DNA of 64,000 bases from Rhodospirillaceae bacterium. GTDB taxonomy: Bacteria > Pseudomonadota > Alphaproteobacteria > Rhodospirillales > Rhodospirillaceae. Made by a program: the position numbers and the translations under genes. Every line of letters starts with the position of its first letter. Positions within the stretch are counted from its first letter, which is position 1. Location of the stretch: NCBI GenBank assembly GCA_947476695.1, contig CANJRD010000006.1:62001-126000 (forward strand). The letters are read 5' to 3'. The notes beneath the pieces were generated by a model, which saw nothing but the letters and a program-made list of their open reading frames with translations, searched no databases and was not told the DNA's origin. Shown here in pieces: positions 11,526 through 43,688 of this stretch.

Positions 11526-11672
11526 CGTCATCCGGGACGAGCCGCGCGTGGCGTGGCGCGATCCGGGTCCAGGGTAACGGGCGCCGGTGCTTGTAACCCA
11601 GGATCCCGGATCTCGTCCGGCCGAGGGCCGGCAGAGAAAATGCGCGCTCCGCGCGGCTCGTCCCGGATGACG
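11526..11672. repeat. MITE-like palindromic repeat R1 with 23-bp perfect terminal inverted repeats
   Basis: The ends 11526-11548 and 11650-11672 are exact reverse complements over 23 bp, beginning cgtcatccgggacgagc. Inside, two further arms (about 11560-11578 with ccgggtccagggtaac, and about 11593-11612 with gtaacccaggatcccgg) are near-complements. The element therefore folds as left arm, short spacer, right arm. It has no coding capacity. The same arm sequence recurs at 13964, 14317, 14385, 17596 and 43636. It fills most of the 200-bp gap between uup and the YaiI-family gene. Confidence 0.85.
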
Positions 11673-13949: not shown

Positions 13950-13963
13950 GTTGTTCACCCCTT

Positions 13964-14015
13964 GTCACCCCGGACAAGCCACGCCTAGCGTGGCGCGATC
14001 CGGGGTCCAGGGTAA
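13964..14015. repeat. Palindromic repeat arm R4 (left of the GIY-YIG gene)
   Basis: This 52-bp arm reads from gtcaccccggacaagcc to ggtccagggtaa, with an internal hairpin ccacgc..gcgtgg. It differs from the arm at 14385-14437 at one position over the shared length and resembles the left arms of R1, R2 and the copy at 43636. It ends 16 nt before the GIY-YIG start. Confidence 0.8.
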
Positions 14016-14031
14016 AGGGCAGGTCCTGCGC

Positions 14032-14319
14032 GTGGGCTATGTCGTTTACATTCTCGCCAGCAAGCGAAATGGGACGCTTTACGTGGGCGTCACAAATGAT
14101 CTTCTGCGTCGTGCCGCAGAGCATCGAACCGAAGCTCTGCAGGGATTCACGCAGCAGCATGGAGTCCATCGTCTCGTGTATTTCGAGTCCCACGATGACA
14201 TTGAGGCGGCAATACTGCGCGAGAAGAAACTCAAGAAATGGTGACGCGCCTGGAAGCTCGAATTGATCGAACGCGAAAATCCCACGTGGTGTGATTTATT
14301 CGACGATGTTGCTCAGTAA
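14032..14319 (+). pseudogene. Small GIY-YIG nuclease gene interrupted by an in-frame TGA
   Basis: From GTG 14032 the frame encodes VGYVVYILASKRNGTLYVGVTNDLLRR..EHR, the catalytic GIY-YIG core of the short (about 95-residue) UPF0213-like family. A TGA at 14242-14244, after EKKLKKW, stops it at 70 residues. The same frame then continues RAWKLELIE and NPTWCDLF to a TAA at 14317-14319, which is the normal family C-terminus. The TGA falls where relatives have Lys or Arg, so a single C-to-T change from CGA explains it. The gene lies exactly between two repeat arms and its TAA is part of the right arm. The truncated protein may or may not be active. Confidence 0.8.
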
Positions 14320-14368
14320 CCCTGGACCCCGCATCTCGCCGCGTGCCGCGGCTCGTGCGGGGTGACAA
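14317..14368. repeat. Palindromic repeat arm R5 (right of the GIY-YIG gene)
   Basis: The sequence runs from taaccctggaccccgc to gcggggtgacaa and is the inverted counterpart of arm R4. Together R4, the GIY-YIG gene and R5 form a 405-bp unit (13964-14368) with inverted ends. Confidence 0.7.
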
Positions 14369-14384
14369 CGGGGGCTCACTTTTT

Positions 14385-14437
14385 GTCACCCCGGACAAGC
14401 CACGCCGAGCGTGGCGCGATCCGGGGTCCAGGGTAAC
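14385..14437. repeat. Palindromic repeat arm R6, direct copy of R4
   Basis: Nearly identical to 13964-14015 (one substitution seen, t to g in the central hairpin) and in the same orientation. It lies 17 nt after arm R5 and 48 nt from the stop of the minus-strand NAD(P)-binding gene. Confidence 0.8.
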
Positions 14438-15289: not shown

Positions 15290-15319
15290 TTGACTCCCGA
15301 GGGGTGAGACGAATAGAAC
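15290..15319 (+). promoter_or_regulatory. Promoter of the imuA-imuB-dnaE2 cassette
   Basis: TTGACT (15290-15295) and TAGAAC (15314-15319) are 18 bp apart. The -10 element lies partly inside the SOS box. The predicted start falls within a few bases of the imuA ATG, so the transcript may be leaderless. Confidence 0.5.
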
Positions 15320-15330
15320 AAAACATGAAC
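15316..15330. promoter_or_regulatory. LexA (SOS) box at the imuA start
   Basis: GAAC-N7-GAAC is a perfect match to the alphaproteobacterial LexA operator (GTTC-N7-GTTC on the other strand). It overlaps the promoter -10 and the ATG at 15325, a position suited to complete repression until DNA damage. Confidence 0.85.
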
Positions 15331-16104
15331 ACGAAGTCCCCTTTCCCCCGGTCAGTCCCGCCTGCGGCCCTGAACCCGGTTCTGGCCAGCCTCCGTCGCG
15401 AGATTGGGGCCCTGGATGGGTCTGGGGCGGCTGGGGAGGCCGGGGTGGTCAGCCTGGGCCTTGCGTCAGTGGACGGGGCTTTGCCCTGGGGCGGCCTACC
15501 CCGGGCCGCGCTCCACGAGATTACCGGCCCCGCCCAGGACGGGGCCCGGCTGGGCTTTGCGGTGGCTCTCCTGGCCCGCTTGCGGATCGGCCGCCCGGTG
15601 CTGTGGTGCCGGACCCAGAGCGCTCTGGCCGACCATGGCGCGCTCTATGGCCCGGGGCTGGCGGCGGCCGGGGTTTCGCCGCGGCAGGTGATCTTCGTCA
15701 CCGTCGCCAAAGCAGCGGACGCTTTGTGGGTGCTGGAGGAGGGCCTGCGCTGCAACGGCCTCGCGGCTGTGGTGGGCGAGGGCATCACGCCACGTTTCAC
15801 CGACACGCGCCGGCTGCAACTCGCCGCGCGCGGCGGCAGCACGCTCGGCCTGTTGTTGCCGGCGGCGAAGGACAAGCCCGTGCCGAGTGCGGCGTTGACC
15901 CGCTGGCATGTGACCTCGGCCCCTACGGCGCGCGGATCGGGCCTCGCACTGCCGCGCCGGGCGTGGCGGCTCGCCTTACAACATGGCCGTGGCATTCGCC
16001 CCACGGCCTGGCACGTGGAGTGGAAGGATGCGGCGCTGTGTGGCGCTTTGGCTGTGCCGCTGGCCGACCGACCGGTGGAAGAACCGGCAGCCGCCCTCGG
16101 CTGA
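15325..16104 (+). CDS. imuA: ImuA, SOS mutasome accessory protein (RecA-like)
   Basis: The 259-residue protein belongs to the ImuA/SulA-like group, which supports ImuB and DnaE2 in error-prone translesion synthesis. Visible family features are GLASVDGALPWGGLPRAALHEI, the degenerate P-loop region GARLGFAVALLARL, and the LWVLEEGLRC.GLAAVVGE segment corresponding to the RecA core. The start at 15325 (MNTKSPFPRS) lies inside the LexA box; a GTG at 15304 is an alternative. It overlaps imuB by 77 nt. Regulation by LexA is strongly indicated. Confidence 0.88.
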   Translation: MNTKSPFPRSVPPAALNPVLASLRREIGALDGSGAAGEAGVVSLGLASVDGALPWGGLPRAALHEITGPAQDGARLGFAVALLARLRIGRPVLWCRTQSALADHGALYGPGLAAAGVSPRQVIFVTVAKAADALWVLEEGLRCNGLAAVVGEGITPRFTDTRRLQLAARGGSTLGLLLPAAKDKPVPSAALTRWHVTSAPTARGSGLALPRRAWRLALQHGRGIRPTAWHVEWKDAALCGALAVPLADRPVEEPAAALG

Positions 16105-17578
16105 GGCGGAGGCGCATAAGCCATTGGTGATGACGATCGCCGCGCCCGGCGGATTGCAGGTCGCGGCGGTGGATGCGAACGCGGCCGCCGAAGGCTTGAA
16201 GCCCGGCATGGCGCTGACCCATGCGCGCGCGCTGATTCCGCATCTGCGCGCCGAGCCGCTCGATGTCGAGGACGATGCTGCCGCGTTGAAGCGCTTGGCG
16301 GTCTGGTGCACGCGCTACACGCCGTTCGCCGCACCCGACGGCACCGACAGTGTGATGCTCGACATCACCGGCTGCGCGCATCTGTTCGGCGGCGAGGCGG
16401 CGCTGCTGCGCGACATGGTCACGCGGCTGCGGCGCTTCGGCATTGTCGCGCGCGCCGCTTGCGCCGATACGCCTGCGGCGGCCTGGGCCTGGTCACGCCA
16501 CGGCAAAGGCACGCCGATCATCGCCGTCGGCGCGACCAAGACCGCGACGGCTTCATTGCCCCTCGCGGCCTTGCGCATTCCCGACACCACCGTCGCGGGA
16601 TTGGAGCGGCTCGGCTTGTGCAAGCTCGACGATCTGTTCGGCCTGCCGCGGGCACCGCTGGCGCGCCGCTACGGCGTCGACTTGCCGCGCCGCATCGATC
16701 AGTTGCTCGGCCGCGAGGCGGAACCGATCTCGCCACTGCTGCCCGCGCCGGTCTGGCAGACGAAGCTGCAATTCCCCGAACCCATCGTGCATCGCGACGG
16801 CGTGGAGATCGCGCTCGACCGTTTGCTGGCTCGCCTTTGCGAACTGCTGCGCAAAGCCGACCAAGGCGCGCGCGATCTGACCTTCACGCTCGGCCGCGTC
16901 GATTGCACGGCGCAGCATGTCAGCATCGGCACCAGCCGCGCGGTGCGCGATGCCAAACATCTGCGGCGCTTGTTCATGGAAAAGCTCGACCGCATCGACG
17001 CCGGCTTCGGTATCGAGACGGCGACGCTCGCGGCCACGCGCGTGGAAGGCTTCGTCGTCACCCAAGGCGATCTCGATGCCGGGCACACGGACGACACGCT
17101 GGACGCGGGCGCGGCGGAACGCGTCTGGGCGCTGGTCGACCGCATCGAGAACCGCTTCGGCGCCCAGCGCATCCGCCAGGTCGCGGCCGTCGCGAGTCAT
17201 CTTCCCGAACGCAGCGTGTGCGATGAGCCCGTGCGCCGTCTGGCCGCATCGGGTGCGGCGACTTGGCCGCGGCAGAGCCAGCGCCCCTTGTCGCTGCTGG
17301 CATCGCCGGAGCCCATCACCGCGCTCGCGCCGGTGCCCGATCATCCGCCGCTGACCTTCACCTGGCGTCATGTGATGCACAAGGTCGCCCACGCCGAAGG
17401 GCCGGAGCGCATCGATCCCGAATGGTGGCGCCTCGCCCAATCGCTGCCCGACCGTCGCCGCACGCGCGATTATTACCGTGTCGAGGACAGCGAAGGCCGT
17501 CGCTTCTGGCTGTTCCGCGAAGGACTCTACGGCCACGAGCCCGCCCCCCGCTGGTTCATGCATGGGGTGTTTGGGTGA
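16028..17578 (+). CDS. imuB: ImuB, Y-family polymerase-like mutasome protein
   Basis: The protein has 516 residues from ATG 16028 (MRRCVALWLCRWPTDRW), the typical ImuB start, so the longer frame from 15983 is rejected. The Y-family palm and fingers regions are recognisable (VAAVDANAAAEGLKPGMALTHARAL, ITGCAHLFGGE, AWAWSRHG), but ImuB proteins generally lack the catalytic carboxylates. QRPLSLL near residue 418 fits a beta-clamp-binding motif. ImuB is the hub that binds ImuA, DnaE2 and the sliding clamp. The start codon lies within imuA. A repeat element separates its end from dnaE2. Confidence 0.9.
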   Translation: MRRCVALWLCRWPTDRWKNRQPPSAEAEAHKPLVMTIAAPGGLQVAAVDANAAAEGLKPGMALTHARALIPHLRAEPLDVEDDAAALKRLAVWCTRYTPFAAPDGTDSVMLDITGCAHLFGGEAALLRDMVTRLRRFGIVARAACADTPAAAWAWSRHGKGTPIIAVGATKTATASLPLAALRIPDTTVAGLERLGLCKLDDLFGLPRAPLARRYGVDLPRRIDQLLGREAEPISPLLPAPVWQTKLQFPEPIVHRDGVEIALDRLLARLCELLRKADQGARDLTFTLGRVDCTAQHVSIGTSRAVRDAKHLRRLFMEKLDRIDAGFGIETATLAATRVEGFVVTQGDLDAGHTDDTLDAGAAERVWALVDRIENRFGAQRIRQVAAVASHLPERSVCDEPVRRLAASGAATWPRQSQRPLSLLASPEPITALAPVPDHPPLTFTWRHVMHKVAHAEGPERIDPEWWRLAQSLPDRRRTRDYYRVEDSEGRRFWLFREGLYGHEPAPRWFMHGVFG

Positions 17579-17595
17579 TGGCAGCGCACACAAAT

Positions 17596-17709
17596 CGTCA
17601 TCCCGGACGAGCGAAGCGAGATCCGGGATCCAGGATAACGAACACGGTGCTTGTGGCCCTGGATCCCGGATCGCGCGACGCGCAAGCGCGCCGCTTGTCC
17701 GGGATGACG
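17596..17709. repeat. MITE-like palindromic repeat R2 inside the mutasome cassette
   Basis: This 114-bp element has ends of at least 13 bp in inverted orientation (cgtcatcccggac at 17596 and its complement ending at 17709). Internal arms carry gatccgggatccagg and cctggatcccggatc. It is the same family as R1 and occupies nearly all of the imuB-dnaE2 gap, ending 17 nt before the dnaE2 start. Confidence 0.85.
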
Positions 17710-17726
17710 ATGGGAGTCATGGAGCG

Positions 17727-20700
17727 GTGAGCTACATCGATCTCCAGGTCACCACCAATTTCTCCTTCCTGCGCGGCGCGTCCAGCGCGGAGGAACTGGT
17801 GATCATGGCGCGGGACCTCGGCCACACCGCCATCGCGGTGACGGATCGCAATACCTTTGCCGGCATCGTGCGGATGTACGATGCGCTCAACGAGCATGCC
17901 AAGCAGATGAAACTCATCATCGGCCTGCGCGTCGATCTGATCGATGCGCCGAGCGTGCTGCTCTATCCCACCGACCGCGAGGCCTACGCGCGGTTGACGC
18001 TGTTGCTGACGGCGGGAAAGCGCCGCGCTCCGAAGGGACAATGCCTGCTGACCCGCGCCGATCTGAAGGCTGCGGCCCTCGGGCAAATGGCAATTGCGTT
18101 GCCTGATGAAGGTGCTGGTCTCGAAGCGCATCTTGTGGCGCTCAAGGCAATGTTCGGTGACCGCCTATCGCTCGGTATGCATTGTGCCTACGCCGGCGAC
18201 GATGCCGCGCGGCTTGCGGAACTGGCGGCGCTGGGCGCGAAACACGACATCCTCACGGTCGCGCTCAACGATGTGCTGTATCACCATCCCCAACGCCGCG
18301 CGTTGCAAGACGTGCTCACCTGCATCCGCGAGAAATGCGTCATCACGGAAGCCGGCTGGCGCCTGAACGCCAACGCCGAGCGTCACCTCAAACTGCCGGC
18401 GGAAATGACGCGCCTCTTCGCGCGCTATCCGGAAGCGGTTGCGCGCACCGCAGAGATCGCGGCGGCGTGCAAATTTTCGCTCGACGATTTGAAGTACGAG
18501 TATCCCGTCGTCACCACCGGCGAGGGCCGTACGCCGGAAGAAGAACTCGTGCATCTGACGTGGGAAGGCGCGGCGAAACGCTATCCCTGCGGGGTGTCGG
18601 ACAAAGTACGCGAAAGCATCCTGCGTGAACTCTCCCTCATCAAGGAACTCAACTACGCGCACTATTTCCTGACCGTGCATGAGATCGTCACCTTTGCGGA
18701 AGATGCCGGCATCCTCCATCAAGGGCGTGGATCGGCGGCCAATTCGGCGGTGTGTTTCTGCCTCGGCATCACCGAGGTCGATCCGGACAAGAACACGCTG
18801 CTGTTCGACCGTTTCATCTCCACCGAGCGTAATGAGCCCCCCGACATCGATGTCGATTTCGAGCATGAGCGCCGCGAAGAGGTGATTCAGTTCATCTATC
18901 GCCGCTACGGGCGCATTCGCGCGGCCCTCGCGGCGACCGTGATTTGCTATCGCCCGCGCAGCGCCCTGCGCGATGTCGGCAAGGCGATGGGGTTGTCCCC
19001 GGATGCGGTCGATATGTTGACGCGTAGCGTCTGGGGCTGGGGCACCGACGGCATCAATGAACAGCGTATCCGCGAGGTCGGGCTCGATCCGACGGATCGC
19101 CATCTTTACTGCACGTTGGAACTCGCGCGCGGTCTTGTTGGTTTTCCCCGTCACTTGGGCCAGCACGTCGGCGGCTTTGTGATCACGCGCCGCCGCGTGG
19201 ATGAGATCGTGCCGGTCGATAACGCGGCGATGGAAGATCGCACCGTGATCGAGTGGGACAAGGAAGATCTCGATACGTTGAAGATTCTCAAGATCGACGT
19301 GCTCGCACTCGGCATGCTGACATGCATTCGTAAGGCCTTCGGTTTGCTCGATCAGTATTATGGCGTGACCTACACCCGGAATGCCGACGTGCCGCGCGAA
19401 GACCCCAAGGTCTACGATATGTTGTGCAAGGCGGATTCCCTTGGCGTCTTCCAGGTCGAAAGCCGTGCGCAGATGAGCATGCTGCCGCGCCTGAAGCCGC
19501 GTGAGTTCTACGACTTGGTCATTGAAGTCGCGATTGTGCGCCCCGGTCCCATCCAGGGCGACATGGTGCATCCCTATCTGCGCCGCCGTGAAGGCAAGGA
19601 ACAGGTTCATTATCCCAAGCAGGAGCTCAAAGCGGTCTTGGAGCGAACCCTGGGTGTGCCGCTCTTCCAGGAGCAGGCGATGAACATCGCCATCGTAGCG
19701 GCGAAGTTCACGCCATCGGAGGCTGACAAGCTGCGCCGCGCGATGGCGACCTTCCGGCGCGTCGGCACCATTGCCTTGCTTGAGGACAAGTTCATCAAGG
19801 GCATGGTGGCGAATGGCTACGAACTCGATTTCGCGAAACGCTGCTTCGAGCAGATCCGTGGCTTCGGCGAGTACGGCTTTCCGGAGTCCCACGCCGCCAG
19901 CTTCGCGCTGCTGGTCTACGTCTCGTCCTGGATCAAATGTCACTATCCGGCGGTATTCTGCGCCGCGTTATTGAACTCCCAGCCGATGGGCTTCTACGCG
20001 CCGGCGCAGATCGTGCGCGATGCGCGCGAGCATGGCGTCGAGGTACGCCCGGTCGACGTGAATGTGAGCGACTGGGACAACACGCTCGAACCCGGTATCG
20101 GCGGATGTGCCGTGCGTCTTGGCTTGCGCCAGGTGAAAGGTTTCAGCGAAGCCCACGCAATCGCGCTCATGAAGCATCGCGGAACGGGCTATCAAGATCT
20201 CCACGATCTTTGGCGCAAGACAGAACTGCCGATCGCAACCTTGACCGCCTTAGCCAACGCCGATGGTTTCATGAGTTTCGGACTCGATCGTCGAACGGCA
20301 CTGTGGCGCATCGGCGCCCTGAACGACGATCTCTTGCCGTTGTTCCGTCATGCGGAGAACGGCGGGCATAACGGTCCGCCGAGTCTGTTCGTCGAACCCG
20401 TCGTCGTGTTGCCGTCGATGACGCTCGGCGAGCATGTGATTCAGGATTACCAAGCGACACGTTTATCTTTGAAGAAGCATCCGCTGGCCTTCCTGCGAGG
20501 CTCGTTAAAAGCGGAGGGCTATATCGCGAGCGCGGAGTTTGACGTCTCGCTCAAAGACCGCCGCGTTTCCGTTGCGGGTCTTGTGTTGGTGCGCCAGCGC
20601 CCCGGCACGGCCAGCGGCGTGATCTTCGTCACGCTGGAGGATGAGACGGGCATCGCCAACATCATCGTCTGGCCCAGCGTGTTCGAGCGCTATCGCCGGG

Positions 20701-20945
20701 TTCTTCTGGATAGTGTGATGCTGGGCATCGTCGGCAAATTGCAGACGGAATCTGGCGTGACCCACGTCATAGCGGATCGCCTAGTGGACCTTTCGCCGCG
20801 TCTCCATGCGCTGTCGTCCCTCGACGGCGAATTCGAAAGCACGATTTCACGGGCCGATGCGGTCAAGCATCCGCTCTCGCGCCCGGACCCGCGCGATGGG
20901 CCGGACATGCGTAAGGTGATGGGCGAGGTGCGGAACTTTCACTAG
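17727..20945 (+). CDS. dnaE2: Error-prone DNA polymerase DnaE2
   Basis: This 1072-residue C-family polymerase has an N-terminal PHP domain (LQVTTNFSFLRGASSAEELV, then VTDRNTFAGIVRMYDA). The polymerase core includes GRGSAANSAVCFCLGIT, the catalytic PDIDVDFEHERREEVIQF, VFQVESRAQMSMLPRLKP and RPGPIQGDMVHPYLRRR. A C-terminal OB domain contains VRQRPGTASGVIFVTLEDETG. GTG 17727 matches the family N-terminus; the upstream in-frame extension runs through repeat R2 and is rejected. GGAG at 17721 is a close RBS. With ImuA and ImuB it makes damage-induced mutations. No SOS box of its own was seen. Confidence 0.95.
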   Translation: MSYIDLQVTTNFSFLRGASSAEELVIMARDLGHTAIAVTDRNTFAGIVRMYDALNEHAKQMKLIIGLRVDLIDAPSVLLYPTDREAYARLTLLLTAGKRRAPKGQCLLTRADLKAAALGQMAIALPDEGAGLEAHLVALKAMFGDRLSLGMHCAYAGDDAARLAELAALGAKHDILTVALNDVLYHHPQRRALQDVLTCIREKCVITEAGWRLNANAERHLKLPAEMTRLFARYPEAVARTAEIAAACKFSLDDLKYEYPVVTTGEGRTPEEELVHLTWEGAAKRYPCGVSDKVRESILRELSLIKELNYAHYFLTVHEIVTFAEDAGILHQGRGSAANSAVCFCLGITEVDPDKNTLLFDRFISTERNEPPDIDVDFEHERREEVIQFIYRRYGRIRAALAATVICYRPRSALRDVGKAMGLSPDAVDMLTRSVWGWGTDGINEQRIREVGLDPTDRHLYCTLELARGLVGFPRHLGQHVGGFVITRRRVDEIVPVDNAAMEDRTVIEWDKEDLDTLKILKIDVLALGMLTCIRKAFGLLDQYYGVTYTRNADVPREDPKVYDMLCKADSLGVFQVESRAQMSMLPRLKPREFYDLVIEVAIVRPGPIQGDMVHPYLRRREGKEQVHYPKQELKAVLERTLGVPLFQEQAMNIAIVAAKFTPSEADKLRRAMATFRRVGTIALLEDKFIKGMVANGYELDFAKRCFEQIRGFGEYGFPESHAASFALLVYVSSWIKCHYPAVFCAALLNSQPMGFYAPAQIVRDAREHGVEVRPVDVNVSDWDNTLEPGIGGCAVRLGLRQVKGFSEAHAIALMKHRGTGYQDLHDLWRKTELPIATLTALANADGFMSFGLDRRTALWRIGALNDDLLPLFRHAENGGHNGPPSLFVEPVVVLPSMTLGEHVIQDYQATRLSLKKHPLAFLRGSLKAEGYIASAEFDVSLKDRRVSVAGLVLVRQRPGTASGVIFVTLEDETGIANIIVWPSVFERYRRVLLDSVMLGIVGKLQTESGVTHVIADRLVDLSPRLHALSSLDGEFESTISRADAVKHPLSRPDPRDGPDMRKVMGEVRNFH

Positions 20946-42127: not shown

Positions 42128-43600
42128 ATGTCGCGCGCTCTCTCTGCCGCGATCCTGATCGCATCCGTCTTCACCGCGCCGGTTTGGGCCGGGCCCATTG
42201 AAGACGGCCTCGCCGCCGTCCAGCGCGGCGATTTCCGCACGGCGGAAAGTCTCTGGCGGCCGCTCGCCGAAAAAGGCGACATGGTCGCCCAGCGTAATCT
42301 CGGCGTTCTCTACTTCACCGGCCGAGCGGCCGCGAACGTGCCGGGCGAGGCGATGAAGTGGTTCAAGGCCTCCGCCGCGCAAGGCGACGTGCTGGCGCAG
42401 AACTACATCGGCAACATGTACTTCCAGGGCCAGGGCGTCCTGAAGGACGTGAACGAGGCCATCAAGTGGTACACGATGGCCGCCACCAAGGGCGACGCGA
42501 ACACCCAGTTCAATCTCGGCGTCATCCACTTCGCGGGCGAAGCGGGAAATCCCAACTACGCCGAAGCGCTGAAGTGGTTTCTGAAGGCCGCCGAGCAAGG
42601 CCACGCCGACGCGGCGAAGAATGCCGCGGGCATGTATCTCTCCGGCCAGGGCGGCCCGGCCAATCCGGCGCAGGCCTTCAAGTGGTACAAGGTCGCCGCT
42701 GAAAAGGGCCAGCCGGAAGCGCAAAACGCGCTCGGCTATATGTACACCAACGGCGAGGGCGGCGCGCCCGTGGACTACGCCGAGGCGATGCGCTGGTTCC
42801 GCGCCGCGTCGGACAAAGGCTTCAACGAAGCCGCGCGCAACATCGGCATTCTGTATGACGCGGGCCAGGGCGTTGACGCCAATCCCGTCGAGGCGATGAA
42901 GTGGTATCGCAAGGCCGCCGGCGCCGGAAACGCGATGGCCAGCTACAATCTCGGCGTCATGTACGCCGCCGACTTCTACGCCGACCAGGGCGTGAAGCAG
43001 GATCTGACCGAGGCGATGTTCTGGCTCTTACGCGCCGCCAACGCCGGCGTGTTGCAGGCCCAGGTCGCCGTCGCGGACATGTACGACACCGGGCGCGGCA
43101 TCGCCGCGAACAAGACCGAAGCGGTGAACTGGTATCTGAAGGCGGCGGAGAAGGGCGACGCGCATGCGCAAGCCGTCGTCGCGCAGGCTTATGCGAAAGG
43201 TACCGGCGTCGCCAAAAACGATCTCGACGCCGCGCGCTGGTATCGCGCCGCCGCCGATCAGGGCGACACCGCCAGCCAGCTGGCGCTCGGACATTTCTAC
43301 GCCGCCGGCCAAGGCGTGAAACCGGATCAGACCGCCGCCGTTTCGTGGTTCCGCAAAGCCGCCGACCGCGGCAACGCCGACGCGCAGGTCGCGCTCGCCA
43401 ACGCTTACGAACAAGGTGCGGGCGTGGCGAAGGACGAGGGCCTTGCCCTCATGTGGTACGCCGTCGCGGCGGAGCGCATGAAGGACGGCGATCCGAAAAC
43501 CGCCGCCGCCTCCGCGCGCGACCGCGTGAAAGCCGCGCTCGATCCCGCCAAAGCCGCCGACGCCGAGAAACGCGCCGCCACCTGGAAGCCGAGCGCGTAA
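42128..43600 (+). CDS. Exported Sel1-repeat (TPR-like) protein
   Basis: The 490-residue protein has a signal peptide (ending VWAG) and about twelve Sel1 repeats of 36 residues with the pattern A..WY..AA..G.A.AQ..LG..Y..G.GV..N... Such solenoids bind proteins or peptidoglycan-linked partners in the periplasm. The start lies 13 nt after the IclR gene, so the two may be co-transcribed. No catalytic domain is seen. A palindromic repeat follows its stop. Confidence 0.88.
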   Translation: MSRALSAAILIASVFTAPVWAGPIEDGLAAVQRGDFRTAESLWRPLAEKGDMVAQRNLGVLYFTGRAAANVPGEAMKWFKASAAQGDVLAQNYIGNMYFQGQGVLKDVNEAIKWYTMAATKGDANTQFNLGVIHFAGEAGNPNYAEALKWFLKAAEQGHADAAKNAAGMYLSGQGGPANPAQAFKWYKVAAEKGQPEAQNALGYMYTNGEGGAPVDYAEAMRWFRAASDKGFNEAARNIGILYDAGQGVDANPVEAMKWYRKAAGAGNAMASYNLGVMYAADFYADQGVKQDLTEAMFWLLRAANAGVLQAQVAVADMYDTGRGIAANKTEAVNWYLKAAEKGDAHAQAVVAQAYAKGTGVAKNDLDAARWYRAAADQGDTASQLALGHFYAAGQGVKPDQTAAVSWFRKAADRGNADAQVALANAYEQGAGVAKDEGLALMWYAVAAERMKDGDPKTAAASARDRVKAALDPAKAADAEKRAATWKPSA

Positions 43601-43635: not shown

Positions 43636-43688
43636 CGTCATCCCGGACAAGCGGCGCGCTTGCGCCGCGCGATCCGGGATCCAGGGTC
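43636..43688. repeat. Palindromic repeat arm R3 (single copy)
   Basis: cgtcatcccggacaagc to gatccgggatccagggt, with an internal hairpin (gcggcgcgcttgcgccgc). It matches the left arms of R1 and R2, but no right arm follows, so it is a half element between the Sel1 and CxxCH genes. Confidence 0.75.

Follow-up and report, generated by a model that had tools for sequence, protein, structure and literature searches.

A GIY-YIG nuclease gene inside mobile palindromic repeats

A small GIY-YIG nuclease gene lies between two inverted hairpin repeats and moves with them as one unit, suggesting an engine for a widespread class of bacterial DNA repeats that had none known. The repeats resemble the published CGTC REPs, which were described as apparently lacking a dedicated transposase (PMC3733652). 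The mobile unit of arms plus nuclease gene is supported by its occurrence at many unrelated places and by sites that lack it; that the nuclease itself mobilises the unit, and that gene-less REP dimers are its non-autonomous derivatives, is inferred.

The GIY-YIG gene and its REP-type arms

The gene is located in a 64,000-nucleotide stretch of a Rhodospirillaceae bacterium genome (GCA_947476695.1, contig CANJRD010000006.1, positions 62,001 to 126,000 of the forward strand; here denoted the window). It occupies 14032-14319 on the forward strand, matches PF01541 (E 9e-14) and is broken by an in-frame TGA at codon 71 (14242-14244). Upstream is the left arm, with its GTC...CC core at 13964-14008 (+), and downstream is the right arm, with its core at 14324-14366 (-). 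The sequence 13958-14013 aligns to the reverse complement of 14319-14372 over 56 columns. Both arms fold as DNA hairpins with an unpaired GTC tag and a CC tail (z -4.7 and -3.8). The initial annotation described a GIY-YIG gene bracketed by inverted arms, which is confirmed, with three additions and corrections; its reading that the nuclease may mobilise or maintain the repeat family is supported but remains an inference. This copy of the gene is broken; each arm is itself a REP-type hairpin, so the element is REP-gene-REP; and only the last base of the TAA (14317-14319), which had been placed in the right arm, lies in the aligned right arm.

Similar arms occur in the window without a gene. R1 (11527-11671) is an inverted REP dimer with cores at 11527-11570 (+, read by eye) and 11601-11671 (-) and a 30-nt spacer, and R2 (17597-17708) is an inverted REP dimer with cores at 17597-17631 (+) and 17661-17708 (-) and a 29-nt spacer. 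R3 (43637-43682, +) and R6 (14385-14429, +) are single REPs, R6 being 98% identical to the left arm over 54 nt. The tags of the window arms read TGTC (13963-13966 and inverted 14364-14367), that of R2 reads CGTC, and Sinorhizobium meliloti arms carry CCTC. The stems of R2 and R3 start with AT, whereas the 8-bp stems of the element's own arms start with AC and enclose an inner hairpin part of 22-24 nt; typical short forms occur elsewhere, e.g. GTCATTCCCGCGAAGGCGGGAATCCA in one relative (L271). A search of Rfam gave seven matches at E up to 1, all below gathering scores, which we dismissed as hairpin look-alikes. R2 sits between the second and third gene of what resembles an ImuA/ImuB/DnaE2-like cassette (15304-20945), in which Pfam IMS and DNA polymerase III alpha domains were found in the second and third gene and no match for the first. 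Elsewhere in the window we noticed two direct and one inverted paralogous block at 28-41 kb and 54-59 kb, about 70-84% identical over long stretches, and five copies of a 65-nt repeat at 42265-43316 (spacing 108, 108, 327 and 444 nt, 60-71% alike), possibly a protein with 36-residue repeats.

To examine whether the arms are repeated beyond the window, we searched the 3.9 Mb genome with a 441-nt query over the element. This gave 32 matches, some places being counted on both strands, and all but two lie in the arm parts of the query. Of 15 repeat loci looked at in this genome, 8 show a +/- dimer. A second, intact copy of the gene, on contig C26, also has a REP-type hairpin on each side in +/- order, GTCATGCCGGCC..GGCATCCA before it and an inverted arm after its stop, although its two hairpins do not align with each other. 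Another GIY-YIG gene of the same genome, on contig C13 and of a different subfamily, has no arms.

Association of the gene with its repeats

To examine whether the association is general, we aligned 20 relatives, in which Y5, Y16, G18, R26, E63 and N82 are invariant, searched named genome contigs and kept the best 80 of 584 relatives (the family of the window gene is here denoted family A). A first detector demanding GTC[AG]T missed the window's own arms and was replaced by one for GTC, an 8-bp stem and CC. With this detector 72 of 80 relatives have a repeat within 300 nt, 64 on both sides and 48 with the nearest pair in +/- order, tags outside; of the remaining two-sided copies 8 are -/+ and 8 same-strand. 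The corresponding counts were 682, 25 and 3 of 5923 windows elsewhere in the same loci, and 88, 10 and 1 of 407 ORFs of 120 aa or more in the same loci. When no tag was required, exact 8-bp stems on both sides occurred in 56 of 78 usable loci, against 167 of 4526 windows and 7 of 390 shuffles; 7-bp stems without a tag were too common in controls (19-21% of windows) to be used.

In 299 genomes of the phylum, 78 carry 137 copies, up to 5 per genome, 10 of them with an in-frame stop. We looked at the flanks of 90 of these copies, comprising 30 as returned by the search, 40 from multi-copy genomes and 20 from genomes poor in the REP pattern, so that the last part leans against the association. The strict detector found a repeat on any side in 57 of 90, on both in 40 and in +/- order in 28, compared with 12, 0 and 0 of 185 windows. 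Without a tag, 56 of 87 had stems on both sides, compared with 13 of 412 windows. By eye, most of the 50 copies not found two-sided still show hairpins with variant tags or tails. Another GIY-YIG subfamily searched in the same 78 genomes gave 19 matches, of which 14 fell outside family A by one query, 3 of them with a repeat on one side and 0 on both. With a wider set of queries only 9 stay outside, 0 with 8-bp stems on both sides and 1 with 7-bp stems.

We next counted a fixed REP pattern in the same 299 genomes. Three or more matches were found in 42 of 78 carriers and 24 of 221 others (odds ratio 9.6, p 1e-13), and 0 of 20000 permutations within families reached the observed value. On the other hand, 12 of 45 genomes with 10 or more matches have no family A gene at E 1e-20, and 36 of 78 carriers have fewer than 3 matches, perhaps because the pattern covers few stems. 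A search of these 12 genomes for weaker GIY-YIG members gave 7 matches in 5 genomes, none with A-type REPs on both sides; two, in one genome (G088), belong to the second clade described below, one (L186) was grouped with it on sequence, and the rest are other GIY-YIG.

To learn whether the arms belong to the gene, we compared arms in 45 copies from 13 multi-copy genomes, 35 of which gave a hairpin on each side. Left and right arm of one element are more alike (0.56) than arms of paralogues in that genome (0.32) or of other genomes (0.26), and shuffling right arms within genomes reached the observed sum in 0 of 5000 trials. Copies in one genome can carry quite different stems (e.g. genomes G260 and G305).

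A different GIY-YIG clade (FVYILRCADG...KGWSRAK) was found in 7 of 96 genomes of the class, in 9 copies. Together with three earlier hits, 11 of the 12 copies (loci L182, L186, L187 and L234-L242) had usable flanks: 10 carry TCATCCTGAG...TCGAAGGAT repeats (CTGAG...TCGAAG), 7 on both sides, and 1 an A-type match. Of 165 distinct family A copies with usable flanks, 124 carry A-type and 0 B-type repeats. The B motif was written after seeing these loci, so the 10 of 11 is descriptive and the 0 of 165 is the control. One genome (G084) holds both clades, each with its own kind of repeat. Interestingly, a GIY-YIG gene on a cyanobacterial (Planktothrix) plasmid (L190:2300-3000) lies among GTCATTCTGAG..GAATCTC repeats (GTCATTCTGAGTGAAACGAAGAATCTC), between an MmeI-like restriction gene and drmA of DISARM. 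Family A loci also come from contigs labelled as other phyla, many of them metagenome bins, so contamination is possible there.

The mobile unit, its ends and its sites

In one unnamed genus (g62), a copy in genome G115 (L264) and copies in genome G217 (L266, L268) share 513-514 nt at 87% that begin CTTCGTCATTC and end GAATGACGAAG, with unrelated sequence outside. In the 513-nt unit of L264 the GIY-YIG frame is the only one recognised, although six other frames of 42-99 codons, some overlapping, were seen but not searched. With L264 as query, 39 of 55 listed dispersed matches end at both arms. With L268 as query, 57 matches over the element were listed, a few at orthologous sites; 6 are partial, and of the other 51, 23 end at both arms and 16 run 10 nt or more beyond an arm. 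Copies within G217 share up to 743 nt. The arms are thus the common ends, but some copies share further flanking sequence, either a longer unit or a preferred target. Of 24 copies extracted, 21 matched a start motif and 20 passed a length criterion, two of these (L373 and L316) carrying a frameshift or deletion; those 20 show mean dN 0.09 and dS 0.58, dN/dS about 0.16, indicating that the protein is kept by purifying selection while copies disperse.

In 27 copies of this genus with flanks there is no target duplication, direct similarity of the flanks being equal to that of permuted pairs (p 0.46). The outer flanks of these copies are more inverted-similar than permuted pairs (8.4 vs 6.3, 0 of 2000), but this is driven by a few copies (L384 and L342, whose outer flanks are themselves 23-29 nt inverted repeats; also L374, L379 and L380). 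In 85 elements from many genomes the direct-repeat control rose too, so that test does not discriminate, and an unoccupied copy of the L342 palindrome was not found in 15 genomes. We make no claim of palindromic targets.

The initial annotation had asked whether sites without the element exist in relatives, and we found such sites. In a second unnamed genus (g58), probably Bradyrhizobium since one locus (L141 of genome G339) aligns through its flanks with named Bradyrhizobium loci, the element occupies a site between a Mur ligase gene (here denoted murC) and murB, assigned by Pfam. All 117 genomes match the query somewhere. Of 30 loci returned, 12 hold the full element, 3 partial forms, 5 nothing (6-7 nt), 9 other sequence and 1 was not the site. 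The other sequence is mostly another repeat, unrelated (CACCCCTCTCCCTAACCCTCCCCC..., in L207, L208, L210, L212, L215, L217, L219 and L220), and one locus (L214) keeps a piece of an arm. The element diverges like its flanks and full sites are scattered on the flank tree, so this is an old insertion with repeated loss, not frequent jumping.

At the fnrL site of Sphingobium plasmids, of 8 aligned, 4 hold the element (one with a 1-nt deletion in the gene), 2 hold only a palindrome made of the outer halves of both arms (L229, L230) and 2 neither. In genus g62, sites without the element have flanks at 86-92% identity (L365, L368, L369 and L371), although the junctions are not clean, up to ~40 nt left and ~52 nt right of the element also failing to align; the same kind of palindrome is found in L372 and L309. 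These palindromic remnants fit a deletion between stem halves of the two arms, by the enzyme or by slippage. The S. meliloti hflX-mazG site proved occupied in both records compared and is not an empty site. Sinorhizobium M103 has two copies alike at 284 of 291 nt, whereas S. meliloti Ak57 has one at the first site (273 and 274 of 291) and no gene at the second, orthologous site, which holds a short hairpin. The simplest reading is a recent duplication that took flanking arms along, although gene conversion plus loss in Ak57 is not excluded.

Interpretation and comparison with known systems

We consider it likely that the element is an autonomous mobile unit (a 'GIY-YIG REPtron') of a CGTC-type REP, one gene for a ~95-residue GIY-YIG nuclease and an inverted REP, ~370-510 nt in length. 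The predicted structure of the intact protein from the window's genome (pLDDT 94) is closest to UPF0213 (1zg2, E 9e-4) and then, weakly, to Slx1 (6seh, E 0.02), a nuclease that appears to be structure-specific; this suits a nuclease that cuts at a hairpin base. We infer that when the strand is single, as at a replication fork, or extruded, each arm folds into a hairpin with unpaired GTC tag and CC tail, that the nuclease nicks at the hairpin base next to the tag on both arms, and that the unit is excised or copied and rejoined elsewhere by host ligation or repair, without target duplication. No experiment shows that the nuclease moves anything, and GIY-YIG enzymes are, to our knowledge, not known to join DNA. 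REP dimers and single REPs would be derivatives served in trans, and different GIY-YIG clades would serve different repeat families.

More broadly, and with somewhat less assurance, stand-alone GIY-YIG nucleases may be the missing engines of the CGTC REP superfamily and of at least one further repeat family (TCATCCTGAG...TCGAAGGAT) across several bacterial phyla, a class of mobile DNA in which a hairpin-cutting repair-type nuclease, not a transposase, spreads palindromic repeats in clade-specific enzyme-repeat pairs. If so, two unrelated nuclease folds (HUH and GIY-YIG) would independently have become partners of palindromic repeats, and a large, vaguely annotated gene family ('GIY-YIG nuclease family protein', 'excinuclease ABC subunit C') would become a mobile-element gene.

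An unlikely but possible alternative is homing, in which a free-standing GIY-YIG endonuclease cuts REP dimers between the arms and its gene is copied into the cut dimer by repair using arm homology, the dimers being targets and not derivatives. Free-standing GIY-YIG homing enzymes appear to exist, and several gene-less dimers in the window's genome have, by eye, a similar short spacer in the place that the gene occupies. However, sites that carry the element in one genome can lack both arms in relatives (the 5 of 30 murC-murB loci with 6-7 nt, and L365, L368, L369 and L371 with 50-67 nt without arms), copies in unrelated flanks carry both arms, and arms differ between copies of one genome. About equally doubtful is that the arms are moved in trans by another enzyme (RAYT, other HUH or IS transposase) with the nuclease as cargo, perhaps protective against foreign DNA. 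RAYTs are thought to move GTAG REPs (PMC3733652), and a paper on Caulobacter speculates that GIY-YIG genes help the host against phage (PMC10688885). Yet tyrosine transposase genes were found not flanked by CGTC repeats, with only a few fortuitous links to others (PMC3733652), the GIY-YIG frame is the only one recognised in the L264 unit (six other frames were seen but not searched), two clades pair with two repeat families, which cargo would not predict, and purifying selection acts on the copies. Chance or insertion bias is very unlikely: although 88 of 407 control ORFs have a REP on at least one side, two-sided inverted flanking (48/80 vs 1/407), arms matched within elements and the arms as common ends of dispersed copies speak strongly against it.

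The link of GIY-YIG genes to these repeats seems to be new in the literature searched. GIY does not occur in the main text of PMC3733652, and we recognised no earlier report of the link in the literature searched (including PMC6006769, PMC12306157, PMC10969869 and PMC10688885), which left out bioRxiv and most subscription journals. The protein shares fold and size with UPF0213 and, by fold only weakly, Slx1 nucleases, 1zg2 being best by fold and by profile (1.4e-9), whereas another GIY-YIG subfamily in the same genomes is not flanked on both sides. Free-standing GIY-YIG homing endonucleases, such as probably the Seg proteins of phage T4, are likewise lone GIY-YIG genes that spread, but the present gene is bounded by inverted hairpin arms, moves with them and is found in many different intergenic places. 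The arms fit most features of the CGTC REP superfamily (Di Nocera 2013; PMC3733652), which includes neisserial dRS3 and rickettsial RPE-4/RPE-6: a GTC-type tag, a CC tail and many inverted dimers, assuming that +/- order with tags outside is the published head-to-head ('HH') form. The stems start with AT in some arms but not in the element's own, some arms have longer or variant stems and tails, and here elements carry a GIY-YIG gene between the repeats. Similarly to RAYT/REPIN systems, in which GTAG REPs accompany REP-associated tyrosine transposases ('REPtrons'), one small nuclease gene lies between inverted palindromic repeats and gene-less inverted dimers occur in the same genome; the enzyme, however, is a GIY-YIG protein instead of an HUH tyrosine transposase, only PF01541 being matched, and the repeats carry CGTC-like tags, not GTAG.
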